NCBI GenBank assembly: GCA_030272155.1 | Contig: CP126203.1 | Coordinates: 1,488,001 to 1,552,000 of the forward strand | Direction of reading: 5' to 3' | DNA length: 64,000 nt | From: Tetradesmus obliquus | Lineage: Eukaryota > Chlorophyta > Chlorophyceae > Sphaeropleales > Scenedesmaceae | Shown: piece after piece, positions 3,001 to 61,700 of the stretch | Position numbering within the stretch: the first letter of the stretch is position 1 | Layout: each line of letters opens with the position of its first letter | Notes under the pieces: model-generated | Database searches by the model: none | What the model saw: the letters and a program-made list of their open reading frames with translations, nothing else | Told to the model about the DNA's origin: nothing | Position numbers and translations under genes: made by a program

Positions 3001-6000
3001 TAATTCACCACACAACAAACACAGAAAGCGGGCAAGTGCCCCAGCACAGTCATGATGGTACCAACAACGCCACGTGCACATGACATACTCGTGTAACTAT
3101 GTTATAACATGCATGCCTTACTCATGAGGCAACAACACGCACACCACATCACAATGACAAGGCATCATGCAGACATGCATGGAGGCCATTACTCAATGCG
3201 CAAGTCACACCCAACCACCAACAAATCATGACATACCGCACCGATGCCAAGCGGCTTGAACAATGCAAGGACAAGGAGGAACCTTACTGCAAACAGTGCT
3301 GAGTCTTGTAGCAGATGCAAGCGGTAATAAAGCGGTGGCAGTCAGGACCAGCACTGCGAAACTGCATAGCATGCATGCAAACAGCCCAGCTGCACATCAG
3401 CTGACGTATGATCTACTGCTGCTGCTGCTGAGTGTGCTGCTGCCCTAGTGCTGCTGGGCCCTGCGCGGCCAACAGGCATAGGACGCCGACAGTTCAGCTG
3501 CATGTCCAGCTGGCATACAAGCCAACCTACATCCTGCCCTGCTGCTGCTGCTGCGCGTGCTGCTGCCCCAGTGCCGCTTGGCCCTGATCAGCCAACATTG
3601 CAGCATTGGGCATGCCAGGAGGGCCACCGCCAAAACTTATGGCCGTGCTGCTGCTGCTGCTGCTGCTGCTCCGCAGTTTTGCGCCGCGCTGCGTGGCCCT
3701 GCGCAGCCAACAGGCATAGGATGCAGACAGCTCAGCTGCATATCCAGCTGGCATACAAACCAACCTACATCCGGCCCTGCTGCTGCTGCTGCTGCTGCTG
3801 CGCGTGCTGCTGCCCCAATGCCGCTTGGCCCTGAGCAGCCAACATTGCAGCATTAGGCATGCCAGGGGGGCCACCCCCAGAACGTCCTGCCCTGCTGCTG
3901 CTGCTGCTGCTGCTCCGCAATTTGGCGCCGCGTTGCTTCGCCCTGCACAGCCAACAGGCATAGGATGTCGACAGCTCAGCTGCATGTCCAGCTGGCATAC
4001 AAGCCAATGCACAAGCCGGTCTACATCCTGCCCTGCTGCTGCTGCTGCTGAGCATGCTGCTGTCCCAATGCCGCTTGGCCCTGAGCAGCCAACATTGCAG
4101 CATTAGGCATGCCAGGCGGGCCACCCCCAGAAGGCACCGACACCATACGAGGCATGCCAGCCTGCTGCATCTGCTGCTGCTGCTGCTGGGCCTGCTGCTG
4201 CATCTGCTGCTGCAGCTGCAGGAGCTGCTGCTGCTGCAGCTGCAGCAGCTGCTGCTGTGCCTGCTGCTGCTGCTGGCCCTGCTGCTGCTGTGGAGGCTGC
4301 TGCTGCTGCTGGCCCTGAGCCTGACCCTGCTGCTGCTGCTGCCCCTGCTGTCCCGCCTGCTGGGCTTGCTGCTGCTGCATGAGCTGCTGTTGCTGCTGCT
4401 GCAGCAGCATCGCCTGCAGCTGCTGCTGCAGCTGCTGCTGGTTCATTGCTGCCATCATCTGCTGCGGCACCTGCACCATCTGCTGACGAGGCTGCTGCCC
4501 CTGCTGCTGCTGCTGCTGGCCTGGCTGCTGCTGCCCCTGCTGCTGCTGCCCCTGCTGCTGCTGTCCTGCATTTGCCAGCGTCACAAGCATCGGCCCGCTT
4601 GCAGTCGCCATCAGCTGCTGCCGCCCCTGCTGCTGCTGCTGCTGCTGCAGCTGCAGGTTCATCAAGCTTGCAGCAATGCCAGCAGGCAAACCCTGCAAGC
4701 CCCCTGGGCCACTGGCAGCAGTAGCAAGTGCAATGGGGGCTGAGGCCGGCACCAGCATCCCACCCATGCTGCCCGGACCGTTAGATCCAGGGCCAGATCC
4801 AGGGGTTTGTCCAAGGTTGATCAGGCCGGCCGGTAAACCCTGCAGTCCTGCAAGGTTTGGCATGCCTGCTGCTGCCATGGCTGCCGCCTGTGCCTGCTTC
4901 TGCACTGCTGCAACGGCTGCCTGCTGCTGCGCCTGAGCTTGCGCCTGCGCGGCCTGCATTTGCTGCTGCTGCTGCTGGTGCTGCTGCATGTTGGCCAGCA
5001 GCATCTGCAGCTGCTCCCGCGAGGCGCCGGCAGCGCTGGCCGTCTGCAGCAGCTGCTGCAGGGATGCAGCAGAAACCTGAGCTAGTGGTGCACTCCCTGG
5101 TGCACCCATCTGCTGCTGCTGCTGCTGCTCTGCGCCATCAGGGCCCTGCATTGGCTTACCCCTGCCTGCTGCAGCAGCTCCCCCAAAGCCGCGCCCGCCC
5201 GCAGCAGCAGCAGCACCCCTGCCGCCCTGGCCCCCTGACCCCTGCCCGGAGGCTGAACCCTGCGCCTGCCGCTGCCGTTTGAAATCCTCGCCGTATTCAA
5301 AATCCTGATCTGGCGCCAGCGCCGCATTCAGTGCAGCTGCATTGATGCTGTGGTAATTCGCAGCCTTAGCACTATCAGCACCCTCACCACCACCTGCACT
5401 GGCGTTGCCGCCGCTGCTGCCCCCTGCTGCTGCTGCTGACTCAGTTGCAGCGCCGCCGCCGCCGTCTGACGCAGCATTACCTCCACCACCCCCAGATGCA
5501 CGTGCACTACCAGGGGCACTTCCCTCGGCCTCTCCGCCGCCATCGCTGCTGTCTGCCTTGCTCACTCGCAGCCCTGCAGCACCGCTCACGCTGCTGCTTG
5601 CGCTGCCACCGCCTCCTCCGCTAGGCGGAGGAATATCCCTCCTCCATGTAGGTGCATCTGACGCCCTGCCAGGGGGCCCAAATGCAGAAGCAACAGGCCC
5701 GTAGCCGCCTGCTGCCGCTGCCGCTGCTGCAGATGCATCGCCTAAGCCGCTGCTGAGAGAGTCGGCTCTCCTTGGGGGTGGAGGGGGTGGGGGTGGTGCT
5801 GGCAGCGCTCCGGCTGCAGCACCGCCAGCAGCAGCAGCAGCAGCGCCGGCGGCTGGCAGCGAGCCCTTGCGGCGCAGGGAATCCAAGGTTGCTGGCGAGT
5901 AGCGCTCCCCGCGGCGCACTGCAAGCAGCAGCTCTGAGAGGGGCTGGTAGAGGTTGCGGCCGGGCGGGATCTGCAGCGGTCAACAAAAAGACAACGGAAG

Positions 6001-8423
6001 TCAAACAGAAGTCAGACATAAGTCAAACACAACACTGGCGTAAGGGCGGCGCACTGCCAGCGGCAGCTCTGAGAGGGGCTGGTAGAGGTTGCGGCCGGGC
6101 GGGATCTGCAGCGGTCAACGAAAAGTCAACGGCAGTCAACAAAAGTCAGACATAAGTCAAACATAGCATTGGCATCAGGGCGACAGCGCGGACGTGCCCC
6201 GTGCAGCTGCAGGCGTCAGCGCAACTTGAAACGTCAGCTACGCTTGCATTGTCACCCATCATGCTGCTTCTGGCGCACCACGCACAAGCCACAGAAGCAG
6301 CAGTAGGCAACAACCTCGCACATGCGCGTCTCCTCCAGCAGCATGCCACCACCACGCATTGCAGCATCACACAGGTAACAACGCAAGTGTGACATGAAAC
6401 ACAGTAAGTATGAGGCTTCAACATGTCACAACAAGATTGGCGTCCACGCCACACATGCGCGTCTCGTCCAGCAGCATGCCGCCACCCCACATCACAGAAT
6501 ACCAGAGGTAACGACACAAATGAAACAATGCCAGCTCGGATCTGACCAATAGGACCCTCGCCTCGTCTTACACACCAAGTAACAGTCTTTAATAACTCAC
6601 CCGGAGCTTGGCATCCGCACCGCACATGCGCGTCTCCTCCAGCAGCATGCCGCCACGTTGCATCACAGATTCCACAAACCATCACACGTTTTTTGTGACA
6701 TAACATAACATAACAGAAATACGAGCTCACCCCGAGCTTGGCGTCCGCGCCGCACATGCGCGTCTCCTCCAGCAGCATGCCACCACCTTGCATCACAGCA
6801 TCTCACACAAAACATCACACACTTTTTGTAACATAACATAACAGAATAACAACTCACCCCGAGCTTTGCGTCCGCGCCGCACATGCGCGTCTCCTCCAGC
6901 AGCATGCCGCTGCTGACCCACCCGATCATCTCCCTGGCACTGAAGGGCCCCTGCACCTGGTCGCTGCGGTCAAAGTAGTACCACACAGGCTCGCCGCCCC
7001 ACGCATCTCCAACAAACAGCGCCTTGAGCTCATCGTCATGACTCATCACAGCCGGCGGGCCGCCGCCAGCGCTTGCAGGAAAGCCTGCAGGAACGCTGCC
7101 GGCCGCACTAATGCCGGCCGGCCGCGGCGGCGGCGGCGGAGGTGGCGGCGGCACGAGCGCAACAGCAGCAGCGCTGAAGGGGCCTGCATTGCTGAATGCG
7201 CTGCTGCCAGGTGCACGGGAGAGTGCTGCTGCTGTGGGTGTGTCTGCATCCGGGGCATCCTCGATCGCCCTGACCAGCGGACCCACAGGGAACCAAGGCG
7301 AGCGGCAGCGCACCTGCAGCAAAAGAAAGCAGGGAATTTTTTTTATACATCTTTTTCAATTCAATTTTCAACATCGTGGTTGGCGTGCCATTGTTTGTTG
7401 TAATGGTGTGCAGGCAGCAAGCAGTAAACTGAGCAGCTGCTTTGCATGACATGACAGCAGCGACAGCAGGGCGCGAGCAACCGAAATGCAATACCAGAGA
7501 TGACACAGCCCTAAGAAAATTGTGCCAGGTACGGTCGTGCAAGAACAGCCATCGCTTCCTGGTGCATTGTGTACTGTTTCCCGCCACTGCCTCACCTTCA
7601 CATCCTCTGGGAAGTAGCCCTTCTTGTGCCAATTCAGGATCTTTTGCAGCAGCCCGGGCTCCTCCCCGAAAGTATCCACATAGAACATCCACAACACCCC
7701 AGCAATGCAGCCGATGCCACCACAAAACACACTGCAGGACACACTACTATTGCAATACACCCCGAGTGCGCTTGGAAATTGCTGCGCACAAGCCACCACT
7801 GTACTCCCTCATGCTTTTCAATTTTATCTCCAGCCAGTTGCCTCACCTTCACATCCTCTGGAAAGTGGCCCTTCTTGTGCCAGTTGAGGATCTTCTGCAG
7901 CGGCACAGGCCCGTGCTCCTTCCCGGATAGGTCCACATAGAATGCTCACAACACCCCAGCAATGCAGCCGATGCCACCACAAAACACACTGCAGGACACA
8001 CTACTGTTGCAATACACCCCGAGTGCGCTGTGGAAAGTCTGCACACAAGCCATCGCTCTACCCCCTCATGCTTTTCAACTCATCTCCAGCCAGTTGCCTC
8101 ACCTTCACATCCTCTGGGAAGTGGCCCTTCTTGTGCCAGTTCAGGATCTTCTGCAGCGGCACAGGCCCGTGCTCCTCGCCCGAGGGATCCACATAGAACC
8201 ACTCGCAGCGCCGCTGAAACGCAGCAACGCTTGCTGTCACTGGAGGCACCCGCTCATAGCCAAAAGGCGCATCATCCTGGCCGGATCCAGCGGAAGGGGA
8301 TACTGCTGCTGCTGATGTGAGGCTCGGGGCTGAGGAAAGGGATGCGGCGCGGTCTAGGTCGCTCGAGGTTTTGCCGCGCGCGCCGCGCTTTACCATAAAC
8401 CCTGGAGGGGCTGCTGCTTCCAT
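1..8423 (-). CDS. GYF-domain protein with three GYF-like modules and a poly-Q middle, 3' end outside the window
   Basis: Exons that splice in frame: 8423-8103, 7313-6858, 5970-4025, 1705-1384, 930-859 and 352 to beyond base 1 (about 1,156 residues so far). The start is the ATG at 8423, first in the open frame. Three GYF-like modules are visible. GYF1 (about residues 73-115) has WFYVDPSGEEHGPV and ILNWHKKGHFP. GYF2 (about 213-275) has WYYFDRSDQVQGPF, MIGWVSSG and then PGRNLYQPLSEL. GYF3 (about 988-1035) has VWEYEDPLKDVHGPF and IINWFAQ. Between GYF2 and GYF3 lies about 650 residues of low complexity with Gln runs at 4,150-4,650. The last exon is Gly/Trp-rich with DYGDYG and GRSGVRGRG. GYF folds bind proline-rich peptides, in splicing, mRNA decay or translational repression proteins of the GIGYF type; which pathway applies here cannot be told. 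Upstream it diverges from the small gene at 9,483. Poly-Pro and poly-Ala tracts add uncertainty only to length, not to identity. Confidence 0.85.
3440..4135. repeat. Tandem copies of the 3' end of the poly-Q exon, about 250 bp apart
   Basis: The segment encoding PPGMPNAAMLAAQGQAALG, a Gln run and the donor GTAGGT recurs with equivalent bases at 3,574, 3,821 and 4,071 (spacings 247 and 250), plus a partial copy near 3,440. The copy at 4,071 belongs to the exon that splices in phase to 1,705; the others lie in the following intron and keep the same donor. The copies differ by many substitutions, so they are not a simple assembly echo. Confidence 0.85.
5911..6115. repeat. Two copies of the acceptor side of the 5,970 exon, 135 bp apart
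   Basis: The block from GCGGCGCACTGC through the acceptor (read on the minus strand as TTGACCGCTGCAG then ATCCCGCC) occurs at 5,911 and 6,046. Both copies have an intact acceptor and the start of the PGRNLYQPLSEL coding segment, so two competing 3' splice sites precede this exon. The 5,970 copy continues open for 1,946 nt; the upstream one does not. Confidence 0.8.
6310..6905. repeat. Five copies of the 3' end of the GYF2 exon with its donor
   Basis: The segment encoding GMLLEETRMCGADAKLG plus donor GTGAGT recurs with equivalent points at 6,318, 6,451, 6,622, 6,752 and 6,879 (spacings 133, 171, 130, 127). The copy at 6,879 is the end of the real exon (6,858 boundary); the four others are in the intron downstream. 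Several keep a consensus donor, so the intron offers several alternative 5' splice sites. Confidence 0.85.
7585..8110. repeat. Three copies of the 3' half of the first GYF exon
   Basis: The segment encoding ILNWHKKGHFPEDVK with donor GTGAGG recurs at 7,591, 7,842 and 8,098 (spacings 251 and 256). The 8,098 copy is joined to the ATG. The two intronic copies extend back to the FYVD segment of the GYF fold, and the copy near 7,600-7,690 is still largely open with changes such as FYVDTFGEEPG. Confidence 0.85.
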
Positions 8424-12540: not shown

Positions 12541-13260
12541 GTGTCAAGTTGCGTTGGGCTTCACTGGCGGTGCGTGAGCCTGGGGGTACTTTGTCTGGCT
12601 GCCGCACCGCGTGCAGCCAGGGCTGCATCACATAGCATAGACAACACACCTAAATGCCTGCGATTTTGGCCCCTCTGCCCTCCCAGCCTTGCAGTTAAGA
12701 GTGCCTGCAAGCTGCCAGCCACGAGTCACTTCTTCTTAATTAATAACACACCACGCTGTCATATAAGCTTGTACCCCATCAGGTCGCGTTGGGCTTCACT
12801 GGCGGCGCGTGTGGCTGTGGGTACTTGTCCGGAGGTGGCACCGCGTGCAGCCAGGGCTGCATAACCATAGCACAGACAGCAAGCCTAAATGCCTGCAATT
12901 TTGGCCCCGCTGCCCTCCCAGCCTTACAGCCAAGAGTGCTGGCAAGCTGCCAGCCACATGTCACTTCTTCTCAACCAACAACACACGATGCTGGTCATAT
13001 AAGCTTGTACCCCATCAGGTCGCGTTGGGCTTCACTGGCGGCGCGTGTGGCTGTGGGTACTTGTCCGGAGGTGGCACCGCGTGCAGCCAGGGCTGCATAA
13101 CCATAGCACAGACAGCAAGCCTAAATGCCTGCAATTTTGGCCCCGCTGCCCTCCCAGCCTTACAGCCAAGAGTGCTTGCAAGCTGCCAGCCACATGTCAC
13201 TTCTTCTCAACCAACAACACACCATGCTGGTCATATAAGCTTGTACCCCATCAGGTCGCG
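12541..13260. repeat. Four tandem copies of the last codons, stop and 3' UTR of the DDT/PHD gene (236-bp unit)
   Basis: The block that encodes PPPDKY, PHAPPVKPNAT and a TGA stop on the minus strand recurs with exact 236-bp spacing at 12,779, 13,015 and 13,251, and as an older diverged copy from about 12,541. Each of the recent units also contains the minus-strand TGTAA polyadenylation signal (for example 13,164-13,160, 87 nt after the stop). The units differ from each other at several bases. The copy at 13,251 is in frame with the gene; the others lie downstream of the stop. Confidence 0.9.
13160..13164 (-). terminator. TGTAA polyadenylation signal of the DDT/PHD gene
   Basis: On the minus strand TGTAA lies 87 nt past the TGA stop at 13,253-13,251. 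TGTAA is the usual green-algal poly(A) signal. The same signal repeats in the 236-bp units further downstream, so several cleavage sites are possible. Confidence 0.5.
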
Positions 13261-16200
13261 TTGGGCTTCACTGGTGGTGCATGTGGCTGCGGGTACTTGT
13301 CCGGAGGCGGCACCGCATGCAGCCAGGGCTGCTGTAGGCTCATGCAGTGGTCAGGGCAGTAGTAGAAGTCTGCATCAGGCATGCCTGCACAGCCCAGGTG
13401 CATCAGCACGCTGCAGCCGGGGACCTGCAGGGGAGGAGTGGTGCGGCAAACAGCGGCAGGGTCAGCAGTGCATCTACAGGGCATAGCTGGTAGGGCAATG
13501 TTTGGTAGCGCAGGTGCATCAGCACGCTGCAGCTGGGCACCTGCAGGGGTGGAGCGGCGGGGCAAACAGCGGCAGGGTACTTGTCTGGAGGCGGCACCGC
13601 ATGCAGCCAGGGCTGCTGCAGGCTCATGCAGTGGTCGGGGCAGTAGTAGAAGTCTGCATCGGGCATGCCTGCACACCCCAGGTGCATCAGCACGCTGCAG
13701 CCGGGCACCTGCAGGGGTAACATGGCGGGGCAAAGAGCGATCGGGTCAGTATTAGTGCATCAACAGAGCATAGCTGGTGGAGGGATGTTTGGTAGCCCAG
13801 GTGCATCAGCACGCTGCAGCCGGCGACCTGCAGGGGTGGAGCGGCGGGGCAAACAGCGGCAGGGTACTTGTCTGGAGGTGGCACCGCATGCAGCCAGGGC
13901 TGCTGCAGGCTCATGCAGTGGTCGGGGCAGTAGTAGAAGTCTGCATCCGGCATGCCTGCACAGCCCAGGTGCATCAGCACGCTGCAGCCGGGGACCTGCA
14001 GGGGTAGAATGGCGGGGCAAACAGAGGCAGAATGTTCAGCACGCAGAGCATAGCTGGTAGAGCAATGTTTGACAGCCCAGGTGCATCAGCACGCTGCAGC
14101 CGGGCACCTGCAGGGGTTGATATGTGGTGTGCGCAGTGGCAGGGCAAGGGATGGCAGTGATGGTTAGCATCTTCAAGCTCTGGTTAAGCCAGGGGAATGA
14201 CGCCGTCGGATCCCACAGGGGAGGGCCAGTAGGGGGCACACTGAGCATAGCCCACAAGAAGATAAGTGGGATAGCACGGGTGCATCAGCACGCTGCACAG
14301 CTAGGGCATTGCATGGAGCAGCGGAGAGAACGAAGGGAGTGGGGGAGCAGTGTGCACAAGGGCAGCCGCAGATGCTGCAGGGTCAATGTTATGCAAGCAG
14401 GCTGCACAGTCATTACCAAACAGGCCACAGCAATGGCGCCGTAGCAATGACGCCACATGCTGCACTGTGAGTTGAAGCAGAATTGACACGGCCCGTACCC
14501 ACCAGCCCGCACCAAGGGCCTGCGCAGCAAAGACACATTCTCTTCACACAGCCGATTCCCCAGTGCGCAACGACATGTGCTGTGCATAAGAGTCCGAAAT
14601 CCAGTGAAAGATACCACGCATGCCCACCTCGCAGCACGCCACTTCAGGCCCTGAGCCGCCACACACGCAGCACTCCAGCCCCCAGCGCCCCTCAGGCAGC
14701 GGGTAGGCCTCCTCCTGCTGCTCCTCGTAGCCCCCATAATAGTCCCCGTACTCATCACCACCGTAGCCGCCGCCTCCTGCTGCCCAGTAAGCCTCGTCGT
14801 CGCTGCCTGCTGCGCTGCCGCCGCGCTTGGAGCGCTGCCGCGCGGACATCTTGCGGCGCGGCTCCTGCAGCGCAGTCGTGCCCTGCAGCAGAAAGAGCAC
14901 AGCAGAGCGGCAGAGCGTCAGTAGGCAGGGGTTGAGTGTAGCCAGGGGTTGAGTTGAGACATCTTGCGGCGCGGCTTCTGCAGCGCAGCGGTACCCTAGA
15001 CAGCCGAGGCACAACGGGGGCAGCAGCAGAGCAGAGCAGTAGGCTTCAGCAGCAAGCTTGAGACGTGGACACCTTGCGGCGCGGCTCCTGCAGCGCAGAC
15101 GTGCCCTGCAGGGAATACAGCAGCAAACAGCAGAAGAGCTTAAGCACAGGGCAGCAGCAATGGATGCTTGTTTGTTTTCTGTCTACATCAAACATGCGCT
15201 GTTGAAGCGCCGGCGGACATCTTGCGGCGCGGCTCCTGCAGCGCAGCGGTGCCCTAGACAGCCAAGGCACAACTGGGGCAGCAGCAGAGCAGAGCAGCAG
15301 GCTTCAGAGCAAGCTTGAGACGCGGACACCTTGCGGCGCGGCTCCTGCAGCGCGGCCGTGCCCTGCAACAGAAGAGGGCAGCAGAGCAGCGACGCAGCGC
15401 AGCAGAGCTGTGTAAGCTGCAACCAGTGGTGTTGTCCTTGGCTGCGGCCTTGTCAGCAGCAGCGTCCAGCATGCCGTGTGTCAAGCCCAGCGCCTCCTCC
15501 CAGGGGGCAGGCCCCAGCAGCAGCAGCTGCCTGCTCAAATCCCAACTCCCAGACCGCTTCTCGCACCATCGCAGACTAGCACACTTCAAAACGTCTCCAA
15601 CAAATCCTCCGAAGCCCGTTGCCAGCCCCACCAAAGTACAAAACACACACCTTGATGCGGCGCCCCGTAGACGTCACGATCGTGTTGTCCTTTGCGGCGG
15701 CCTTTTCAGCAGCAGCATCCAGCATGCCGCGTGTAAGACCAAGGGCCTCCTCCCAGGGGGCAGGCCCCAGCAGCAGCAGCTCCTTGCGGCGCACTGAGGC
15801 CTGGCGGTCCTCTGCGATTGCTGCTGCCACGCCGGTGCGGATGCGGCTGAGCGCGAGGTTGGACATGAGCCGCTGCAGGCATGAATGATGAAAGTAAGCA
15901 GCGGCTTAGTTATGAACAGTTGCTGAGCCGGTACGGTATGGGTGCGATGTAAAATGCATTGTTGTTGTTGATGGTATTGGAAGAGAAGATGTGAAAGATG
16001 TGAGTTGCGAGGGTGGGAAAGGAGGCCCCAGCAGCAGCAGCTCCTTGCGGCGCACTCAAACCTGCCGGTCCTCGGCGATGGCTGCTGCCACACCGGTGCG
16101 GATGCGGCTGAGCGCGAGGTTGGACATCAGGCGCTGCGCGCAGATGGTGTGTGTAACAGACAGTAGTGATTGACAGCTACTGAGTGTGTTTGTTGTGCGA

Positions 16201-18614: not shown

Positions 18615-18654
<40 letters not shown>

Positions 18655-18748
18655 TGGTGAGGTGGTTGGGTTTGCTGACCAGGCCTTCTAGCTCACTTAG
18701 TGAGGCTGCCACTGCGGTGGCTTCACTGGCGGCCTGCGAATACAGCAT

Positions 18749-18788
<40 letters not shown>

Positions 18789-18867
18789 GATAGGGAAGTT
18801 AGGCAGCTGACAAGGCCTTCTAGCTCCCTCATTGAGGCGAAAACAGCAGTTGCCTCGCTGGCAGCCT

Positions 18868-35523: not shown

Positions 35524-36235
35524 GGTTGGTCAGCAGGCCTGCCAACTGTACACCGGCGCTTGTCATCGAGCCGTTGGCAGTTGTTTGTGTGTGATGAGCT
35601 CTGAAATATCACCTGGCAGCGGCCATAGGGCCTTTGCTGGCTGTGCGCTATGACTCAGAGGAAGAAGAAGCAGAGGAGGAGGAGGCGCCTGCTGACAAGG
35701 CGGCGCCTGGCATCAAAGTGCGGCGAGGCGCCATCTTGGACAATGGCGATGACTAAGCTTGGTCAGCACAGCCGGCAGGCCGTACGCAGGGCGCTCAGTC
35801 ATTCGGCCGTTGGCAGTTGTTTGTGCGTGATGAGCTCTGGAATATCACCTGGCAGCGGCCATAGGGCCTTTCCTGGCTGCTTGGCTATGACATAAGAAGA
35901 GGAAGAAGAAGCAGAGGAGGAGGAGGCGCCTATTGACAAGGCAGCGCCTGGCATCAAAGTGCGGCGCGGTGCCATCTTGGACGATGACGATGACTAAGCT
36001 TGGTCAGCAGGCCTGCCGGCTGTACACCGGCGCTGTGTCATCGAGCCGTTGGCAGTTGTTTGTGTGTTAGGCTCTGGAATGTCACCTGGCAGCGGCCACA
36101 GGGCCTTTGCTGGCTGCGCGGCTACGACTCAGAAGAGGAGGAAGCAGAGGAGGAGGAGGCGCCCCTGCTGACAAGGCATCGCCCGGCATCAAAGTGCGGC
36201 GTGGGGCCATCTTGGACGATGACGATGACTGAGGT
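35405..36235. repeat. Four tandem copies of the LEO1 C-terminus, stop and 3' UTR
   Basis: GGCATCAAAGTGCGG lies at 35,477, 35,709, 35,950 and 36,185 (spacings 232, 241, 235). Each unit spans RGYDSEEE, EEEEAP, GIKVRRGAIL-DDDD and a stop. The first unit ends the gene; three more follow the stop. Units differ by substitutions and small indels, so some later ones are no longer open throughout. Confidence 0.92.
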
Positions 36236-41429: not shown

Positions 41430-41499
41430 GCGCATTATGTTGCATGATACTTATGCTTGTAATGAATGCAATTCGGCAACTTTCTTTATACTGGCTATT

Positions 41500-42900
41500 T
41501 GAAAGCAGCCACTGCTGGCAGCAGCAGCCGCAGGCTGGCCATCAGCCACGAACTGGTGCTGCCAGCTTGCTGGCCATGCTCCGCAGCGCAGCAACGCTTT
41601 CAGCGAGTCCACAATCACACCAGCGCTTGCTCGCGTGTAGCCGCCAGGGAGCAGCATGGCAATGGGTGCGCGCTGCTGCTCTGCGAAGGCAAAAGACTGC
41701 CACATGCGACTACAGTCTCTCTCAATGTGGTTTGCAAACCAGTGGCACCCCGACAGCAGCAACAGCTGCGCTGCTGAGCTAGCCATTTATGCCTGCTCCC
41801 AGCGTGCCGGCTACTCCCCGCAGCAGTGCCGTCAACGAGTCACAATCACGCCAGCACTCGCGGAGCCTGACAGTAGCATGACAACCGGTGCGCTGCCGCT
41901 CTGCGAAGGCGAAAACTCATGTGACTATTGTCTCTCTCAAAGGAGAACATATGCCAAAGCAGCGGCAAACCACTAGCTACGTACCCAACAGCAGCAGCGG
42001 CGGCAGCGCTGCTGACTAGCCATCAAGTCCCTGCTCCCCCAAGCTTGCTGGCCATGCCCCGCAGCAGTGCCGTCAGCGAGTCCACAATCACGCCAGCACT
42101 CGGACGCGTGTAGCCGCCTGACAGCAGCATGGCAATGGGAGCGCGTTGCTGCTCTGCAAAGGCAAAGACTGCTGCGTCGCGCTGTTGCCTCTCTCAACAA
42201 ACACTGTCTCCCCGTCAGCCGCGCCAGCGGCAGCAGCCGCGGTGCTGACTAGCCATCAACTGCTGCCCCAAGCTTGCTGGTCATGCCGCGCAGCAGTGCC
42301 GTCAGCGAGTTCACAATCACGCCAGCACTCGCACGCGTGTAGCCGCCTGACAGCAGCATCGCAATGGGAGCGCTGCTGCTCTGCCATGTCAAATAACAGC
42401 CGCATGTGACCACTGTTACATCTTAAAAGAGGACAACTTGCCAATGCAGCGGCAAACCACTAGCTACCCAACAGCAGCAGCAGCACCAGCAGCGCTGATC
42501 AGCCATCAATTGCTGCCCCCAGTTTGCCGGCTACTCCTTTCAGCAGTGCCGTCAACGAGTCCACAATCACGCTAGCACTCGCGAACGTGTAGCCGCCTGA
42601 CAGCAGCATGACAATGGGTGTGCGCTGCTGCTCTGCAAAGGCGAAAACTCCCACATGTGACTTTTGCCTCTCTCAAAGGAGAACATCTTGCCAAAGCAGC
42701 GGCAAACCACTAGCTACTCAACAGCTGCAGCAGCGGCAGCGCTGCTGACTAGCCATCAAGTCCCTGCTGCCCCAAGCTTGCTGGCCATGCCCCGCAGCAG
42801 TGCCGTCAACGAGTCCACAATCACGCCAGCACTCGCGCGTGTGTAACCGCCTGACAGCAGCATGAAAATGGGAGCCCGCTGCTGCTCTGCAAAGGTGAAG
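41500..42900. repeat. Six tandem copies of the last HDAC exon, stop included
   Basis: The ACAATCAC landmark lies at 41,609, 41,840, 42,082, 42,311, 42,561 and 42,815 (spacings 231, 242, 229, 250, 254). Each unit spans FAEQQR-PI-MLL-GGYT, ASA-VIVDSL, ALL and KLG on the minus strand. The 42,815 unit belongs to the annotated gene. The next (42,660-42,490) is still open, keeps the catalytic-Tyr loop SGGYT and has its own stop; several others have frameshifts. Confidence 0.92.
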
Positions 42901-44138
42901 ACTGCTGCGTCGCGCTGCTGCACGCCTGCAGCAGACACTGACAGCCTGCCCAGGGGGTCACCCGCCAGGATATCTGTGCCTGGACAGCAGCATGAAATCA
43001 CCCAAAGAATCTGACAGTAAGTTACTGGTGGGGAGATATGGGTGTGAGGTGTGCAGATTTGCACTTTGCAAGCTGAACTGTACATCTTTACACAAACTCA
43101 TGGCGTTGTTTACAGATGGATTGCGTTTGAGTGCATGCCAGTAGTCGAGCGATGCGGTGGAATGATGCATGACGTGTGTCACCAGACATTGGCAGCCGGC
43201 CCAGGGGGTCACCCGCCAGAATATCTGTGCCTGCACAGCAGCATGCACGCATACGCATAAGTGTTGTTGACAAAAACAATGCAATGCGTCATGGAAAAGG
43301 GTGCGGTTGTTCATCAGACACTGGCAGCCGGCCCAGGGGGTCGCCTGCTAGGATATCTGTGCCTGCACAGCAGCATGAATTGGTCACGACATTGTTGAAC
43401 ATAAATGAGACCGGTATATTGTTGTGTAAGGAAGGATGTGGGTGATCAGCAGACACTGACAGCCAGCCCAGGGGGCCGCCTGCTAGGATATCTGTGCCTG
43501 CACAGCAGCATGCACACGGTCACACACTTTGCTTTAAGAACCAATCACATACAGCGCTGGGGCGGCATTGCAGCCTCAGCCAAAGCCAGTTTGGAGATAC
43601 GACCATAGGTGCGTCAAGACGTTGTGTCAAGAGGATGTGTGTATGTGCAGCAGACACTAACAGCCAGCCCAGGGGGTCACCTGCTAGGATAGCTGTGCCT
43701 GCAATGCAGCATGCACACCACCTTTTTAAAGACCAGTATGTGGTGTGGTGCCCCACTTGTACTGCTGCCTGGGTCGCTGGCAACACCTTGCTTGTTTGCA
43801 CTTGAACATACACGCATAAGCAGTTGCAGTGATCAGTATTCAAGCTGATTGTGACCAACTCTGCCAGCCCGGCGCTCTGTGGATGCAAATTTGAATCATA
43901 ACTAGCGCCTGCAAGCAACAGGATGACCAGCACAGCTGGCAGCTGACGTTTTCACACCACCTTGCATGGCACGCCCAATGTGACCCAGCAGAACATCGAT
44001 ATCTACACTGCAACAAAGTCTCACCAGCGTTGTAGATAATGAGATGGGGCTGCGGGAACTCTGCTGCTGCTTTGTTCAGTGCTTGGTGCAGCTGCGAGAG
44101 GTACTGCTGGTCTGAGGTGCCTGGCTGAAGCTCCACCT

Positions 44139-44177
<39 letters not shown>

Positions 44178-47100
44178 AGCAAACAGCAGGATGGCGGCAA
44201 CGTTGGTTGAACAGCATGAGCAACAAACCTTGGTGTTAGCTGCTACCTCAGCAACCGCTGCTGCATTGACTGCTGCTGCCTGATGTTTGGTCAAGCTGCA
44301 TTCAACTTGGCATCAATTGCTGCCTTTTGCGGCAGTGGTCAGTGTGGAAGCATGCCTGTTGCACATGTCTAGGTTGTACAGCTCAGCAACCTATTGCTTA
44401 TGGTACAATAGCTGTTATTGTGGGATAGGAAGGTTACATGTGCGTACTGGTTATGCAGCACAAACATTCATGTGTCTACCTTGGTACTGATTGCTGCCTT
44501 TGCAGCAGTGTCCCAAGGAAATGCCGCACCGTTGTACATGTCCAGGATCTACAGCTCACAACCGCAATCAGTAGAATGCAATGTTCACTCACCTTGGTGT
44601 TGATTGCTGCCTTTGCAGCCGTGTCCCATGGAAACGCCGCACCGTTGTACATGTCCAGTATGTACAGCTCAGCATCACCAGCAGCCAGCTTGTCCCTGCC
44701 CACACCGTTGCCCTGATGAACATCTAGGTCTATGACCATGATGCGTGAGACTGCACCAGTAGAAGCAGCCCTGCGGAATATACAAGCAGGTGTTTTCGGG
44801 TGATGTCAGCATAAGGGCACCAGCCAGCGCCGGCATCCGTGTGCACATGGTGCATAACCCTCCGCCTGCAGCACACTTCTTGCTGCAAACTAGGTTCAAA
44901 CCACCATCCCACCTGATGCGCTGCACTGCCAGGGTGATGTCTGCTTACGGGCACCAGCCAGCACCATCCTCCCTGTGTGCATGGTGATACCTCCCAAACC
45001 CTAAAGCATACTTTAAAAGCAAAACTTACAGCCATAATATCCCTCATCCCACCTGATACGCTGCACTGCCAGTGATATGTCTGCATAAGGACACCAGCCT
45101 GCGCCATCCTCCCTGTGTTCATGGTGATACCTGCCAAACCTAAAAGCATACTTTAAAAGCAAAACTTACAGCCATAATATCCCTCATCCCACCTGATACG
45201 CTGCACTGCCAGTGAAATGTCTGCATAAGGACACCAGCCTGCGCCATCCTCCCTGTGTTCATGGTGATACCTCCCAAACCCTAAAGCATACCTGAAACCA
45301 AAAAAACTTACAGCCATGATCCTTCATCTCACCTGATGCGCTGCACTGCCAGGGAAATGTCTGCATAAGGGCACCAGCCGGCTCCATCCTCCCTGTGCGC
45401 ATGATGAAACATCCTAAGCCCTGAAGCATTCAATACAAATCAGAACCCAAAACCTAGTCACTCATCCCACCTGACCCGCTGCACTGCCAGGGTAATGTCA
45501 GCATAGGGGCACCAGCCAGCTCCATCCTCTCTGTGCGCATGGTGCATGCCGCCGCCCACATTCACTGCCCAGCCATGCGCCACTGCCAACGCAGCAGCAA
45601 GCACAGTCCCTCCCACATGCAGCCGCATCGGCTGCAGCACTTTGTGCTGCATGGTGCATTTTGCATGCCTTACACGCTTGATGCAAACCTCTCATTCAAA
45701 CCTGCTGGCAACTGTGTCCCGCCTGTGTCAACCCACCTGATGCGCTGCACTGCCAGGGTGATGTCCGCATAAGGACACCAGCCAGCACCATCCTCCCTGT
45801 GTGCATGGTGATACCTCCCAAAACCTAAAGCATACCCTAACCCCAAAGCAAAACTTACAGCCATTCTTTAAAAGCAAAACTTACAGCCATAATATCCCTC
45901 ATCCCACCTGATGCGCTGCACTGCCAGTGATGTGTCTGCATAAGGACACCAGCCTGCGCCATCCTCCCTGTGCACATGGTGCATACACTACAGCACACCT
46001 TGCATTCAAAATTTTCAACCACCACCTCACCTGATGCGCTGCACTGCCAGGAAATGTCTGCATAGGGGCACCAGCCCGCGCCATCCTCTCTGTGCGCATG
46101 GTGCATGCCGCCGCCCACATTCACTGCCCAGCCGTGCGCCACTGCCAACGCAGCAGCAAGCATGGTACCTCCCACATGCAGCCGCATGGGCTGTAGCACT
46201 TTGCGCTGCATCGTGCATGCGTTTACGCTTGATGACAACCTCTTTTCTAAACCTGCTCAACTGTAACCTGCCTGTGTCAACCCACCTGATGCGCTGCACT
46301 GCCAGTGTTATGTCTGCATAGGGGCACCAGCCCGCGCCATCCTCTCTGTGCGCATGGTGCATGCCGCCGCCCACATTCACTGCCCAGCCATGCGCCACTG
46401 CCAGCACAGCAGCAAGCACAGTGCCTCCCACATCGGCTGCAGCACTTTGCGCTGCATGTAAATAGTGCATGCCTTTACGCTTAATGCAAACCTTTCGTTC
46501 AAACCTGCTGCAACTGCAACCCGCCTGTGTCAACCCACCTGATGCGCTGCACTGCCAGGGTGATGTCTGCACAGGGGCACCAGCCGGCACCATTCTCCCC
46601 CGTGCACATGATGAAACCTCCTAAGCCCTACAGCATTTTTAAAATCAAAAACTAAACCCTAGTCACTCATCCCACCTGATGCGCTGCACTGCCAGGGAAA
46701 TGTCTGCATAGGGGCACCAGCCAGTACCATCCTCCCTGTGCACCCTTTAGTATAAGATGATGAAACCCTACAGCAGAGATAGATATTCAACCCAAACCCT
46801 AATAACTCATCTCACCTGACCCGCTGCACTGCCAGGGTAATGTCAGCATAGGGGCACCAGCCAGCTCCATCCTCCCTGTGTGCATGGTGCATGCCGCCGC
46901 CCAGATTCACTGCCCAGCCATGCGCCACTGCCAGCGCAGCAGCAAGCACAGTACCTCCCACATGCAGCCGCATCGGCTGCAGCACTTTCCGCTGCACAAT
47001 GAAGTGTGGTAGTGCTGCTAATGGGGCGAGCTCTGTGACTTGTGCTACTTTGAAGCTTGAGGAGTGCAGCTGCTGCAGGTATGTTTGACTGTGCACTGAC

Positions 47101-47367
47101 TGCAGCGCGGTCAAACTTGCAGGAAGAGGTTTGACCAGCTGGCTGTTGTTTGAAATGATGCCGTTGGTGTGCAGTCCTGCAACCACCTGTTTGCAGGGTA
47201 GGAAATTGGAATTTGGGAATGAACAGCTGCAAGCAAGGATGATGAGTAGATGGAGCCACCAGGGATGCAACCAGTTTGCTGCTGCCGTTGCTTCTGCTGC
47301 TGCTGCTGCTGCTGCTGCAGCACCCAACATAACTTGCTGAACTTGCAGGCGTCAAAGGGGTGCAGCA

Positions 47368-47420
<53 letters not shown>

Positions 47421-47521
47421 ATTGCATCTGGTATGTCGGCACATCGTTTTTCTGACGTATCTTGCTGAACTTGCAGGCGTCAAAGGGGTGCAGCTTCTCC
47501 AGGCCACGTTGCTGCCGCCGC

Positions 47522-47554
<33 letters not shown>

Positions 47555-48322
47555 ATTGCATCTGCACACACACGTGATCCATCATCGTTTTACCCACCTT
47601 GCTGAACTTGCAGGCATCAAAGGGGTGCAGCTTCTCCAACCCACCTTGCTGCCGCGGCCGCTGCTGCTGCTGTTGCATTGCATCTGCACACACGCGTGAT
47701 CGATCATCGTTGTACCCACCTTGCTGAACTTGCAGGCGTCAAAGGGGTGCAGCTTCTCCAGGCCAAACAGTGTGATGTTGTAGCCGGGGTCATACACCAT
47801 GGGCAGCTGCTGCTCACTCTTCCAGGATTCTGCAAAGTATGTTCATAACAATTTGTTGGAGAGAAAGAGGGACAGCAGGTGCTTAGAAGGCAGAAGTCGA
47901 ACTAGGTGTGTTGTTGCAGCCCTGGTTGTTCACGAGCGGCAGCATGGTGCACTGCCATGTTCTGTGCCATGCAACTTTGAGGGAGAGAGCATGTGCTGCA
48001 GCTGCACTAGTCAAAATAACAGCAAGCCAGTTCAGGCACCATGACACAGCACTTGAGGATCACATGGGCTGATGCATGCACCATGCAGTTTGGCAGCACT
48101 GCATATGCACAGCAGCACTGCTGACAGCTCACCGCACACATCCATGTAGTGCTGCTTGAGCTGCTCTTCAAGCTGTGGCCGTGCTGCTGCAGTTGCGCAT
48201 CGTGCCAGAGTTTCCGAAATCGAAGCACGACCTGCAGTGGGTCCTGCAGTGGGTCCTGCAGCTGCGCCTGCTGCTGTCCTGCTACTGCTGCTCGTGCTGC
48301 TTCTGCTGCCTCGGCCCAACAT
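42756..48322 (-). CDS. HDAC11-like: Class IV (HDAC11-like) histone deacetylase
   Basis: Six exons join in frame to 394 residues: 48322-48133, 47829-47720, 47186-46816, 44770-44593, 44136-44025, 42979-42756. The ATG at 48,322 gives a short Ser/Ala-rich leader that no homologue requires. The deacetylase fold follows in order: LPMVYDPGYNITLFGLEKLH, HPFDACKF, QRKVLQPMRLHVGGT, HGWAVNLGGGMHHAHRE, GWCPYADITLAVQ, MVIDLDVHQGNGVGRD, ELYILDMYN, FPWDTAAKAAI, LIIYNAGTDILAGDPLG and MLLSGGYTRASAGVI. The two catalytic His (GGGMHH), the zinc ligands (IDLDVH and GTDILAGD) and the transition-state Tyr (SGGYT) are all present. The pattern is that of HDAC11 and Arabidopsis HDA2, class IV enzymes that remove acetyl and, in animals, long-chain acyl groups from lysine. 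Whether the algal enzyme prefers acyl groups is unknown. Nearly every exon edge is duplicated in the introns, and the last exon is repeated after the stop. Confidence 0.93.
42960..43705. repeat. Five copies of the acceptor side of the last HDAC exon
   Basis: The block with acceptor and codons TDILAGDPLG-L-VSA occurs at about 42,975, 43,220, 43,350, 43,490 and 43,690. The 42,979 copy is the true exon start; four lie upstream in the intron. All keep the zinc-ligand Asp of GTDILAGD. Confidence 0.88.
44139..44172. repeat. CAG run adjoining an HDAC 3' splice site
   Basis: Eleven CAG triplets on the plus strand (CTG on the sense strand) end at the CTGCAG acceptor of the 44,136 exon, the same arrangement as at 22,677. 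Confidence 0.9.
44285..44660. repeat. Three copies of the end of the HDAC IDLDVH exon
   Basis: Codons for ILDMYNGAAFPWDTAAKAAINTK are present in the true exon (ending 44,593), again at about 44,475-44,555 (nearly identical) and, decayed, at about 44,315-44,375. The middle copy is preceded by text that still reads as SWTCTT in another frame. Confidence 0.8.
44905..46960. repeat. Twelve copies of the HDAC exon end carrying the catalytic His pair or its downstream segment
   Basis: The landmark ACCTGATGCG or close variants lies at 44,911, 45,051, 45,191, 45,331, 45,469, 45,735, 45,906, 46,029, 46,284, 46,537, 46,674 and 46,814. Spacings are mostly 137-140, with some of 123-171 and some of 253-266. 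The 46,814 copy is the real exon end. All copies read YADITLAVQR or similar on the minus strand with a donor AGGTGAGA or AGGTGGG. Three long copies (45,469, 46,029, 46,284) also carry HGWAVNVGGGMHHAHRE, that is the active-site His pair. Confidence 0.93.
47290..47790. repeat. Copies of the second HDAC exon end, with CAG runs
   Basis: Codons for GLEKLHPFDACKFSK occur in the true exon (ending 47,720) and again ending near 47,595, 47,460 and 47,335. The intronic copies are each separated by CAG runs on the sense strand, including (CTG)17 on the plus strand at 47,369-47,419. Confidence 0.88.
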
Positions 48323-49535: not shown

Positions 49536-49539
49536 AACC

Positions 49540-56640: not shown

Positions 56641-56739
56641 GTTGGTGCATATTGAATATCAGCGCAAGGTTGCATGCAACAGGCTGCAGCCAGTGGCCAG
56701 GAGCCATGCACAAAGTAACACATCATAACCGGATGCTGC

Positions 56740-57240
56740 TGTGTGTGCCGTGCACATGCATGTTGCAGCATGTCCATGCCTGGCCTATGGCCACCGTCTC
56801 TACCATGCTGTTGGCATGCTTCATGCTGCATGCTGGCTATTGGCCACAGCCTCTGCATGTCAAATGCATGCCAGCATGCTAGCATATCATGTTGGCCTTA
56901 AGCCACAGTCTCTGCATGCTGTATGTGGTATGCATGCACCATGCTGGATGCCGGCCATTGACCATTGGCGCTGCATGTCAGATGCATGCGAGCTGCATGC
57001 TGGTCGTTGGCCACAGTCTCTGCATGCTGCATGCATGCATCATGCTGGGTGCTGGCCTTTGGCTCCGTTTGCAGAATGCATGCTGCCTGCCAGCTGCATC
57101 CATGACCCAAGGCCACAAGATCTCTGGAGCCTGTGGGCATGCTGTATGGATGCTGCATGCATGCTGCATGCGTGCTGCAACTGTATGCATGCTGTATGCT
57201 GCATGCATGCTACTTGTTGGCTACATCAAATGGCAGGCAA
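56740..57240. repeat. Diverged minisatellite of about 60 bp built on GCATGCTG words
   Basis: Units share the order GGCCACAGTCTCTGCATGCTG, a run of GCATGC words, then CATGCTGG-TGCTGGCC; good copies lie at about 56,850, 56,905, 57,010 with looser ones on both sides. SphI-type GCATGC palindromes are very frequent. No reading frame is conserved between units. Confidence 0.7.
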
Positions 57241-57359
57241 AGTAGAAAACCGCATGCATGGGGTGCCAATGCAAGTCTTGCTGCCTCAACAAGCGTACAA
57301 TGAAATGTAATTTAGGTGTGCAACAGGTCTAAATGCACCATTTCCTGCTCAACACTCAC

Positions 57360-57476
57360 TATGTGGTAGTTGGTTGTTGATGGCTGCTGCCCCTGCACAC
57401 CGTCAAAACCCTGCGTAAGCCCTCTCAACTGACCTAAACCCTGCTGAACCTCAAAGCCCACAGCGCCATGTGACAA
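57360..57476 (-). CDS. Isolated exon candidate, 39 codons
   Basis: A CCCTGCAG acceptor, 117 open nucleotides (LSHGAVGFEVQQGLGQLRGL and onward to PSTTNYHI) and a GTGAGT donor, phase 0 at both ends. The codons look protein-like but I could not attach it to a neighbouring gene. It may be part of a gene downstream of the Ly6-like gene or a relic. Confidence 0.3.
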
Positions 57477-58751: not shown

Positions 58752-61700
58752 TCACAGCAGCTGCATGTGGGGGTTGCCCCTCAACAGCACGAAGTGCCTG
58801 TGCAGCCTCCTGTTGGCCTTGCTCTCAGTCTGGCTGTGGATTGGAATTGCCTCCTGCCGATCAAAGCCATTATCTTCGGGGGTACGGCTGCCAAGTGTAA
58901 CGGGTGGCTTCTTGTCACGCGCAGCACGTGCAGCAGAAGAGACTTCCCAGCCTGCAGAGTTGGCGAGTTGGCAAATGGGCGGGCAGTGCAAGGACAGCGC
59001 GCAGAGAGTAAGGCATAGGGACGAAGCAGGTGTGATGTGGGTGTGCACGTGCAGCAGATGAAAATTCTCAGCCTGCATCAAGTGCGGTGAGGTGGGGTGT
59101 GCAGGCACAGCAGGCAGAGAGTGAGGCACACAGACGCAGCAAGTGTGACGTGGTTGTGCATGCACAGCAGATGAGACCTCCTAGCCTGCATTGAGTGTGA
59201 TGAGTTGGCGAGTTGGGTGGGGTGTGCAGGAACGGCAGGCAGAAAGTGAAGCCTGGCCAGCTACAGCCTCCGGCTCGCACCTGAAGCGATAGCAGCAGGG
59301 CCGTTTCCAGTGCCGGACTGCGCAGCGGACTTTGGCGCAATGTTTGTCACCGCAGCGCTCCTGCTGCGCTCCTGCCTGGTCATTGAAGCAGCGACGTTGT
59401 CCTGCGCGGTGGGCGCGTAGGAGTCGATGGTGGCAGTAGCAATGCCATCCTTTGCCACTCCGTACATGGAGCCAGAGCCTGCTACAGCACGAGCTCCAAG
59501 GTATGTGCCAGCCACGGTGTGTACACCACGCTGGAAGGCATACTCAGAGTCCAGGTTGGCTGCAGGACAATCGCGGTAGAAATTGCAGCAGGGCAGCAAT
59601 ACGACTGATTAGCGGCAGGACAGGTGTGCACCACGCTGGAAAGCATACTCGGAGATTAGGTTGGCTGCGGGACAACAGCAACGCAATTGGCAGCAGCAGA
59701 GCGGGCAGCGCAATTGATGAGCAGCAGCGCAGGCAGAGCAATTGGCGGCAGAACAGGCACTGCCGTGTGACATGAGGAGCTCGCAGTGCGATTGGCAGGA
59801 GAGCGCAGTACGTATGAGCAGCACAGCCGGCAGTACAGGCGAACCACGCATGGGTTGGTTGAGGGCCATGTTTTGCAGGTTTACAGGTGTAGCAGGGGGT
59901 TGCTGCTCTGCATGCTTCGTCTCAGCATCCGAAAGGCAGCTGAGATGCTGTTTTGATGTACAAAGTTCGCATGCGTGCACAGTCTCACCTGCAATGGCGT
60001 AGTTGGTACCAGCCGCGCTGCGCACGTTGTTCGGTGCGCCCACCAGGTCATTGTTTGGGGCGTTCTTGGAGTAGGCACCCACCCAGCTGGCCTTGGCCTT
60101 GTCGCCTGCCTCAACAGTGACCGTTCCTGCAAACAGTTTCCAGGTGTGACACACAGCATGTGAGCCCATGTTTATGGTTGTGGCGGGCAAAGACAGACCG
60201 TGGGAGGTGACATGACACCCAGCTGGCCTTGGCCTTGTCGCCTGCCTCCACAGTGACGGTGCCTGCAAGCAGTTTCAGGTGTGACACGGACGGCATGTGA
60301 GCCCATGTTTTTGGCTGTGGCGGGCAAAGAGGGACCGCTGGAAGTGACATGACACCCAGCTGGCCTTGGCCTTGTCGCCTGCCTCAACAGTGACGGTGCC
60401 TGCAAGCAGTTTCCAGGTTCGACACAGACGGCGTGTCAGCCCATGTTTTTGGCTGTGGCGGGAAGTGATATGGTTTCCTCAGGAAGTGTTAAGCTACTGA
60501 ACTGGCCTTTGCCTTGTCTTCTGTCTCCACAGTGGCATTTCTGCAAAATTTCACATGTTTGCAGGGTGTGCAGGTGAGGTGCGACATACAGCAGGCACGC
60601 ACAGCTGAGGAGCGTGCAGCCTGCGCAAGCTCAAGCTTTTACAAAATCTTCAGGTCTCTAGAGCCATATACAATACATAACATGGTGCATTGGCCAGTAC
60701 TTCAAACAGAACAGCAGCTATGCGGGGAGTCAGGTGCCGTATCTTGGCACATGCTGCACTGTTCAGAGTTCTGGATGTGCAAAAAAACTCGATCTTCGCA
60801 AGCAGCAGGACTTGCAAGGGTGTACTGGAAACAGCAGTTCTGCTGAAACAGGGAGTCATTATGCCCTCCACTCACCGTCATTGTAGTAGACTCCGTTGTA
60901 TCCAGAAGAGGCCGAGGCTTCAGCGTTGATCCATGTGAAGGCATCACCCGCGCCTCCAGGGTCATTTCCTGCGCTGTAGCTGTAGGCAGAAGCCTGGGTG
61001 TCCTTGGAATCCTTTTCACGCCTGGTAGGCTCAATCTTCCTTAGCTTTCTTGCCGCCTGTGCAGTTGAAATGGCGCCTGAGGGATGGCAGAGGTGGCCCG
61101 AGTGCAGCAGCAGTACAGCGCATGCGCAGCAGGGAGTGCAGGTGTCCGTGTGATGGAGCTAAGAAGACGGCATCCTGCAAGTGATAAGCGTCTGAAAAAG
61201 CATGGGACGGTTCACCACAAAATCGTGTGCAAGCGCTGGGATGTCTAGGATGGCTGATCGGGGTGCAAGCTGATGATGAGATGGCCATCGACCTGGCTGC
61301 TGCTAGGTAACTGCAAGGTAGGCCGACTCACCCAGAAGAAGAGCTGTCACCAAACAGGTGCGTACAGTAGTGGAAAGCGACATGTTTTGCGCTGCTCGAG
61401 CTGTGGCGTGTTGTGCCGATCCTTGAGGGGTCAAATGGACGGTCCACGTGCTGGTTGCCTGCTCCCTGTCGGCGTTGTCGATTGCTTGAAAGAACCAAAT
61501 AAACTCTTATCACTACAAATGACGTGATGAAGCTGGTAGTAGCCTGCTGAAGCAGAAACTGTCGCTGCGATGGCGCCCACGTTATTGATGGTCAAGGTGT
61601 CGTAAGGCTCGTGCTCGGAGTACAGATGCACAAGGAACTGGATCAACTCTGAAAAAACAAAAAGCAGGCAGTCTGCTTTGACGTGCAAGCCTGCACTTGT

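Follow-up and report, generated by a model that had tools for sequence, protein, structure and literature searches.

Do introns that hold tandem copies of the neighboring exon's end record the birth of introns or the lengthening of existing ones, and why do the spare copies stay alike? Intron growth is usually inferred from single cases, and one widely grown alga, the common freshwater green alga Tetradesmus obliquus, holds many such arrays, in which copies of different ages adjoin the source exon. The window analyzed here is a stretch of 64,000 nt from its genome (GCA_030272155.1, CP126203.1, positions 1,488,001-1,552,000, forward strand; Table 1). When the window was compared with itself by BLAST, filtering left 133 direct pairs, of which 132 are separated by less than 3 kb, and two inverted pairs, both within CTG/CAG runs. 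The repeats are local and arranged in tandem. They reduce to 43 clusters of direct repeats without overlap, and arrays with units of at least 60 bp number 19. A first-pass annotation of this DNA had counted about 30 arrays, which are thus real and more numerous, and had described copies that include part of an exon with its donor or acceptor, as we confirmed in the HDAC, GYF, and DDT-like genes. Some stretches, though, have no array: the pair list shows no repeat pairs at 49,976-56,787 or beyond 60,462. Similarly, most of the 13 arrays that we placed in a reading frame are centered on splice junctions, as that annotation proposed, but two consist of terminal-exon copies past the stop codon. 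To look beyond the window, we sampled 20 stretches of 10 kb (200 kb) spread over all 17 contigs, of which 15 carry arrays with units of at least 60 bp (27 arrays in total). Junction arrays are therefore found genome-wide, yet more densely in the window than in the sample; scaled from the 27 per 200 kb, there are about 14,000 arrays in the genome, some of them satellites outside genes.

Table 1. Positions (numbered within the window) and content of the HDAC11-like gene and of the repeat arrays.
Feature	Position	Strand	Remarks
HDAC11-like gene	42756..48322	-	six exons; joined, an open 394-aa protein
HDAC11-like exons	48322-48133, 47829-47720, 47186-46816, 44770-44593, 44136-44025, 42979-42756	-	
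HDAC exon 2 end, 4 copies	47333..47761	-	donor GT lost in two, exon parts still identical
HDAC exon 3 end, 13 copies	44798..46889	-	1 used, 12 extra; intron 3 filled
HDAC exon 4 end, 2 copies	44480..44670	-	TAG in extra copy
HDAC exon 6 acceptor and start, 5 copies	42932..43698	-	last copy used
HDAC terminal exon, 6 copies	41557..42887	-	5 extra copies past stop codon
Exon end within GYF domain and donor, 3 copies	7596..8204	-	PF02213, 41.3 bits
DDT-like gene, 113-bp array, exon end and donor, 6 copies	24324..24954	-	
DDT-like gene, acceptor and exon start, 2 copies	25003..25232	-	differences: 4 synonymous, 0 other
DDT-like gene, preceding exon end and donor, 2 copies	25462..25776	-	differences: 5 synonymous, 0 other
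Exon end reading DSELKPGQCYASM..., 5 copies	22937..23679	-	one-base deletion in two
Acceptor and exon start reading PFQVDDMD..., 3 copies	26274..26627	-	
Gene called LEO1 in the first-pass annotation, exon end and donor, 4 copies	31545..32243	+	
Same putative LEO1 gene, terminal exon, 4 copies	35413..36229	+	stop codon ending each copy
Two adjacent arrays	12544..14117	.	units about 236 and 287 bp; self-BLAST pairs
136-bp array	60080..60462	.	last within range of the first-pass annotation; self-BLAST pairs

The genes differ in how well they are identified: the HDAC11-like protein has a full-length ortholog (P0001, 82% identity) and matches PF00850 with 182 bits, the DDT match scores 16.1 bits, under the Pfam cut-off of 22, and the pieces tried from the gene called LEO1 gave no Pfam match. 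Spacings in the window clusters are distributed with none below 95 bp, 23 at 95-160 bp, two at 160-215 bp, 14 at 215-300 bp, and four above 300 bp, close to the 95-180 and 228-256 bp previously read by eye. We found a further copy between the pair members in 11 of 17 testable pairs spaced 215-300 bp (p <= 0.015; 17 of 24 such pairs were testable, drawn from the window, the sample, and HDAC-family loci), so the longer spacings are mostly multiples of the shorter ones.

The edges of the repeats tend to fall at splice donors. Without any gene model, splice-donor words were enriched at repeat edges in both window and sample relative to background and shifted control bands, with CAGGT and AGGTG as the top two 5-mers, although copies within one array are not independent; the identity profile, preselected for donors near the edge, cannot show a drop. 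Of the 30 extra copies of donor type that extend to the end of the exon, 27 keep the GT, and the introns do offer decoy donors, as had been suggested, while AG is present by eye in seven of seven acceptor copies (automatically in five of seven, one seed starting 1 base inside the exon). The copies also fill the adjacent introns as first described: the four HDAC introns with copies measure 456-2045 bp, against 303 bp for the one without. Many introns have been lengthened by repeated copying of an exon end together with its splice site. The first-pass annotation had instead invoked intron gain, and in the AGGT-duplication model a new intron takes both splice sites from the duplicated segment. 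The leading edge 5-mers and the 13 copies of HDAC exon 3, mostly ending CAG/GT, would suit this model. However, the three HDAC donor arrays are paired with an acceptor, and the HDAC acceptor array with a donor, situated beyond the array itself, so that in introns 2-5 the duplicated segment never supplies both sites, and several framed arrays read ACG/GT or TGG/GT, with no AG before the GT. Because each HDAC array repeats a single intron end and the site in use at the opposite end lies elsewhere, we read these arrays as intron growth, and we regard intron birth from AGGT-bearing segments as very unlikely.

Differences in the exon parts of the extra copies are mainly synonymous. We framed 13 arrays by hand (59 copies, 46 of them extra), because automatic framing was unreliable: a codon-usage model based on open frames drifted to alanine-rich repeats. 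Frames are supported by the ortholog for five HDAC arrays, by Pfam for GYF, and by open reading frames only for the other seven, and the copy contiguous with the rest of the exon was taken as the copy in use. Among changes private to one extra copy, 55 of 103 were synonymous, against a neutral expectation of 0.272 (p = 1.8e-8; the count needs three copies and excludes the two 2-copy arrays and HDAC exon 4). The HDAC arrays alone gave 21 of 50 (p = 0.017), and acceptor arrays four of 11, which is not significant. Broken copies share this pattern: 11 of the 46 extra copies contain a frameshift or stop, and their private changes were synonymous in 25 of 43 cases, compared with 30 of 60 in intact copies. 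Variants common to several copies were 32 synonymous to 11 nonsynonymous, and singletons 67 to 56 (Fisher p = 0.03). Mismatches also concentrate in one codon phase (430 versus 383.2, sd 7.8, under random placement; 89 independent pairs), an excess present in the genome sample alone (z = 4.9). These synonymous-rich exon parts in spare copies, like the unrelated flanks described below, are new here. Informally, we also considered whether third positions might be hot spots of mutation; of the nine differences in the two DDT-like arrays with two copies each, six are transversions, which speaks against CpG decay.

In concerted evolution of tandem repeats, copies remain alike while their flanks drift. 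We found this trait in the arrays: in 96 of 134 copy pairs (one truncated HDAC copy included) the flanks are no more similar than shuffled sequence, although the exon parts there have a mean identity of 0.888, and the copy at 23177-23091 has no substitutions relative to the exon in use beside an unrelated flank (z = 0.3). Direct tests of exchange were weak: PHI gave p = 0.042 for exon plus intron, 0.34 for the exon part alone in the largest array, and 1.0 in three other arrays. Exon types partly track flank types (p = 0.002), as expected without exchange. The likeness to concerted repeats ends at one point: here each family includes one working exon end, and selection on the protein would therefore act on the whole family.

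One alternative reading would be plain tandem duplication followed by neutral decay, the exon part seeming better kept because one member of each pair is a constrained exon. The broken copies fit this, as do the near-identical flanks of the 113-bp array, which is young, and the HDAC differences at which the ortholog's residue matches the exon in use in 42 cases, the copy in 14, and neither in five. Yet 67% of the changes between exon in use and copy are synonymous, against the 43% predicted for neutral copies, and the flanks are unrelated in those 96 pairs despite exon parts that are 89% identical. Neutral decay as the whole story is rejected by the synonymous excess in extra copies, and overall we consider this reading unlikely. 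That excess, together with the intact GTs, could alternatively mean that many extra copies serve now or served recently as alternative exons or exon ends, under protein-level selection of their own; a longer HDAC copy (45650-45471) forms a whole exon with an open frame, and in the public model P0002 an exon begins a few bases at most from the point at which the longer HDAC copies start to match. We find this quite unlikely, since most copies consist of one exon end only, the broken ones are as rich in synonymous changes as the intact ones, and with spacings that are not divisible by three, for example 113, 140, and 155 bp, exon use would break the frame. Nor do the arrays resemble tandem or mutually exclusive exon duplication, in which copies would be whole exons with open frames and a splice site on either side: apart from the longer HDAC copy, most are single exon ends, and 11 of the 46 extra ones are broken. 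A hidden acceptor turning each copy into a mini-exon was discarded, as the left edges of the copies have no consistent AG by eye.

Substitutions between copies had been taken as evidence against an assembly echo, an argument weaker than it looks, because two diverged haplotypes merged in tandem would likewise show mainly synonymous differences and diverged introns. Such an artefact, whether from haplotypes or from reads, is nevertheless very unlikely, given that a single exon end occurs in as many as 13 different copies, that units measure about 100-160 bp, and that 15 of 20 stretches have arrays. Indirectly, the separate assembly of strain UTEX393 has long introns too: its mean intron of 462 bp is the longest among five green algae tabulated, the others ranging from 230 to 302 bp (PMC5966456).

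The explanation that we favor, tentatively and at somewhat less than an even chance, is that short tandem duplications are tolerated, that their exon parts exchange sequence with the coding exons, and that their flanks turn over. It builds on the observed arrays, spacing, splice-site edges, synonymous excess, broken copies, and near-identical exon parts beside unrelated flanks, whereas we infer the exchange, its route, and the role of diverged haplotypes. Local duplication of about 100-160 bp, or multiples of this, would take in the end of an exon together with the splice site and a short piece of intron, and the extra copy would persist where it is spliced out with the intron or sits past the stop codon; with survival limited to these places, existing introns and 3' ends would lengthen. 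Most extra copies would not be working exons at present. Because the exon parts are closely spaced direct repeats (some 60-90 bp long, about 100 bp apart), they could continue to recombine among themselves as well as with the coding exon, and probably also between diverged chromosomes, which we assume because rough arithmetic makes a long constrained history hard to reach by exchange on one chromosome lineage. As any copy might then reach the coding position, damage to amino acids and splice sites would be purged from the whole pool, while the unconstrained flanks would turn over. It is possible, if rather doubtful, that introns genome-wide hold standing pools of exon ends that exchange with the working exon, probably across diverged chromosomes, with protein-level selection thereby reaching non-coding DNA in introns, and introns growing and turning over from their edges, tied to splice junctions.

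Introners, which are dispersed copies of one element, likewise change introns genome-wide through copied sequence; unlike them, each array here copies its own neighboring exon end and is found at one locus only. A dispersed mobile element or introner was rejected: of the 133 filtered pairs, one is separated by more than 3 kb, and the unit from HDAC exon 3 matched the genome at its own locus only. In the potato RdRp case, a short tandem duplication across splice signals likewise left an extra segment in an intron, but that intron was new and took both sites from the duplicated stretch, whereas here an existing intron is extended from one side, in many genes and with up to 13 copies. In the polyubiquitin array with its dual-specific AGGT sites, unit boundaries also carry AGGT usable as donor and acceptor (PMC10809524), but UBC units are in-frame coding monomers retained in the mRNA, while the copies described here are for the most part incomplete, out of frame, and intronic. 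Short direct repeats near splice sites also lie at intron borders, but their mean length is 11.4 bp and they have been interpreted as footprints of insertion (PMC11782384), whereas the repeats here are at least 40 bp long and form arrays. For Haematococcus, the sections available report short repeats in tandem and nothing resembling exon-end arrays (PMC7617258), and in the literature searched, with most subscription journals outside its scope, intronic arrays of exon ends were described neither for T. obliquus nor for any other alga.

In T. obliquus the growth of introns, their decoy splice sites, and the exchange of coding with non-coding copies thereby become directly testable, and in genomes of this kind exon copies may be mistaken for exons by gene prediction and by exon searches. 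Among minor observations, the last copy of the 113-bp DDT-like array is followed by a different intron sequence, an additional degenerate copy of the HDAC exon 4 end lies near 44400-44330, and another degenerate copy sits between the two DDT-like copies at 25462..25776.

We searched the 104.66-Mb genome (17 contigs) of Tetradesmus obliquus, a scenedesmacean green alga, and sampled 20 stretches of 10 kb outside the window, drawn from all 17 contigs. The first-pass annotation had described tandem copies of exon-intron junctions in nearly every gene, and the repeats proved real and local: after filtering, 132 of the 133 direct pairs in the window self-BLAST lie less than 3 kb apart, and the two inverted pairs both fall within CTG/CAG runs. 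The window holds 43 non-overlapping repeat clusters and 19 arrays whose unit is no shorter than 60 bp, about twice the array density of the sample, where 27 such arrays are spread over 15 of the 20 stretches. The sole filtered direct pair more than 3 kb apart is 86% identical. Copy spacing was measured in 107 independent pairs from the window, the sampled stretches and eight HDAC-family loci: 57 are spaced at 95-160 bp, 9 at 160-215 bp, 24 at 215-300 bp and 12 at more than 300 bp. Of the 215-300 bp pairs, 17 could be tested, and in 11 of these an additional copy lies in between (p <= 0.015). In the window and the sampled stretches (L009-L028), spacings are sharply bounded at the low end near 95 bp, with 5 of the 107 pairs below that value, and favour 100-160 bp. 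The 113-bp exon-end array of the DDT-like gene is followed immediately by a perfect tandem duplication of 52 bp, which seems to have arisen very recently.

Positions of the features discussed (window positions, or positions within sampled stretches L024 and L028) and copy numbers
Feature	Position (strand)	Copies
HDAC11-like gene (public model P0002, OEZ86_009029)	42756-48322 (-)	
HDAC exon 2 end		4, one in use
HDAC exon 3 end		13, one in use
HDAC exon 4 end		2, one in use
HDAC exon 6 start		5, one in use
HDAC terminal exon		6, one in use
113-bp array, DDT-like gene	24324-24954 (-)	
52-bp duplication	24208-24318	
Array with substitution-free copy	22937-23679 (-)	
Substitution-free copy	23177-23091	
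Distant direct pair	36789-36963 / 41283-41452	
L024 array, 279-bp unit	16-3959	14
L024 array, 345-bp unit	4115-6039	5.5
L028 array, 114-bp unit	7850-8399	

The repeats are also tied to splice sites. With no gene model used, AGGTG and CAGGT were the two 5-mers most enriched within 12 bases of a repeat edge on its inner side, with CGCAT, GTGAG and GTGGG next. Donor motifs starting inside the edges are in excess both in the window (26 of 338 edge instances, 10.6 expected) and in other loci (26 of 410, 11.4 expected), each edge counting as two instances, so that the effective numbers are about half; control bands in the window and the other loci gave 10 and 15 inside the repeat, and 10 and 20 outside it. 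A wider donor count agrees (74 vs about 26 expected; 17 in reverse orientation).

When joined, the six exons of the HDAC11-like gene yield a 394-aa protein that aligns to a full-length ortholog at 82% identity and also matches PF00850. Copies occur beyond the stop codon and in four of the five introns (533, 2045, 456 and 1045 bp); the single intron without copies measures 303 bp. In each copy-bearing intron the opposite splice site lies outside the array, so the arrays lengthen these introns from one side and are not the source of both splice sites. The suggestion that AGGT duplication was a route to intron gain is thus not supported at this gene. The exon 3 unit has no match elsewhere in the genome beyond its own locus. 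In the public model, exon 3 lacks its initial portion, which orthologs keep, and starts no more than a few bases from the point at which the longer copies begin to match; the model also lacks the gene start and is probably a short prediction or an isoform. A transcript-based protein of a related alga (P0016) stops precisely where exon 3 ends (…AVQRIR), as though its transcript had retained the intron that reaches giant size in T. obliquus. Published work describes AGGT sites acting as donor and acceptor, and a UBC array (PMC10809524), short direct repeats near splice sites (PMC11782384), and a mean intron of 462 bp in T. obliquus UTEX393 vs 230-302 bp in four other green algae (PMC5966456); within the portions of the literature returned by our search, and for that search alone, no description of comparable exon-end arrays turned up.

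A coding signature is present in the copies. Among 89 independent pairs, one codon phase holds the mismatch excess (largest-phase sum 430 vs null 383.2, sd 7.8), outside the window (z = 4.9) and within it (z = 3.5). We framed 13 arrays by hand, comprising 59 copies, 46 of them extra to those in use. Ten of these arrays have three or more copies; in them, 55 of the 103 private changes of extra copies are synonymous, vs a neutral fraction of 0.272 given the transition bias that was observed (p = 1.8e-8). Synonymous changes make up 25 of 43 in copies with a frameshift or stop, 30 of 60 in intact copies and 15 of 22 in copies in use; 34 of 53 with HDAC excluded and 21 of 50 in HDAC only (p = 0.017); and 26 of 44 in donor arrays, 25 of 48 in terminal exons and 4 of 11, not significant, in acceptor arrays. 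Nonsynonymous to synonymous differences in the three two-copy arrays are 0:4, 0:5 and 2:5. Between exon in use and extra copy, 67% are synonymous, where neutral copies would give 43%. At HDAC, the residue found in the ortholog agrees with the exon in use in 42 cases, with the copy in 14 (13 of them from two sites) and with neither in 5.

Most copies consist of a single exon end, several spacings are not divisible by three, and 11 of the 46 extra copies contain a frameshift or stop within the aligned exon part; the majority do not look like working exons at present. Variants common to several copies are 32 synonymous to 11 nonsynonymous, vs 67 to 56 for singletons (Fisher p = 0.03); older variation among copies looks filtered, newer variation less so.

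Several arrays follow the pattern E f E f E g, in which E stands for an exon end together with its splice site, f for the stretch of intron separating copies and g for a different sequence past the last copy; in the 113-bp array this final copy ends just past gtgagtg. We compared the 40 bp past the splice-site footprint in 134 copy pairs from 11 donor or acceptor arrays. Flanks align no better than shuffled sequence in 96 pairs, with a mean exon identity of 0.888; in the other 38, identity is 0.928 in the exon and 0.890 in the flank. One copy has zero substitutions relative to the exon in use, with one base deleted, and an unrelated flank (z = 0.3), and two copies from HDAC exon 2, identical in their exon parts, no longer carry the donor GT and align only weakly in their flanks (z = 2.7 and 2.2).

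We propose that the copies may exchange their exon parts, both with one another and with the coding exon. Such exchange would explain why exon parts are similar next to unrelated flanks, why repeat edges fall at the splice-site footprint and how selection reaches non-coding copies. Frequent recombination is to be expected between direct repeats of 60-90 bp spaced about 100 bp apart. The direct tests of exchange are weak: in the largest array PHI gave 0.34 for the exon part and 0.042 for exon plus intron, and in three other arrays it gave 1.0; exon types partly track flank types (p = 0.002). By rough arithmetic on the substitution counts, divergence between exon and copies would have arisen mostly while both were coding. 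Such a history is hard to obtain on one chromosome lineage, so we add a further, putative step: exchange between chromosomes that have diverged, or use of the copies in the past.

Two long tandem arrays in L024, in which codon-phase bias is absent, resemble satellites more than exon copies. In the L028 array one codon phase holds 17 of 19 mismatches; its unit is a multiple of three, and it is perhaps a true in-frame protein repeat.
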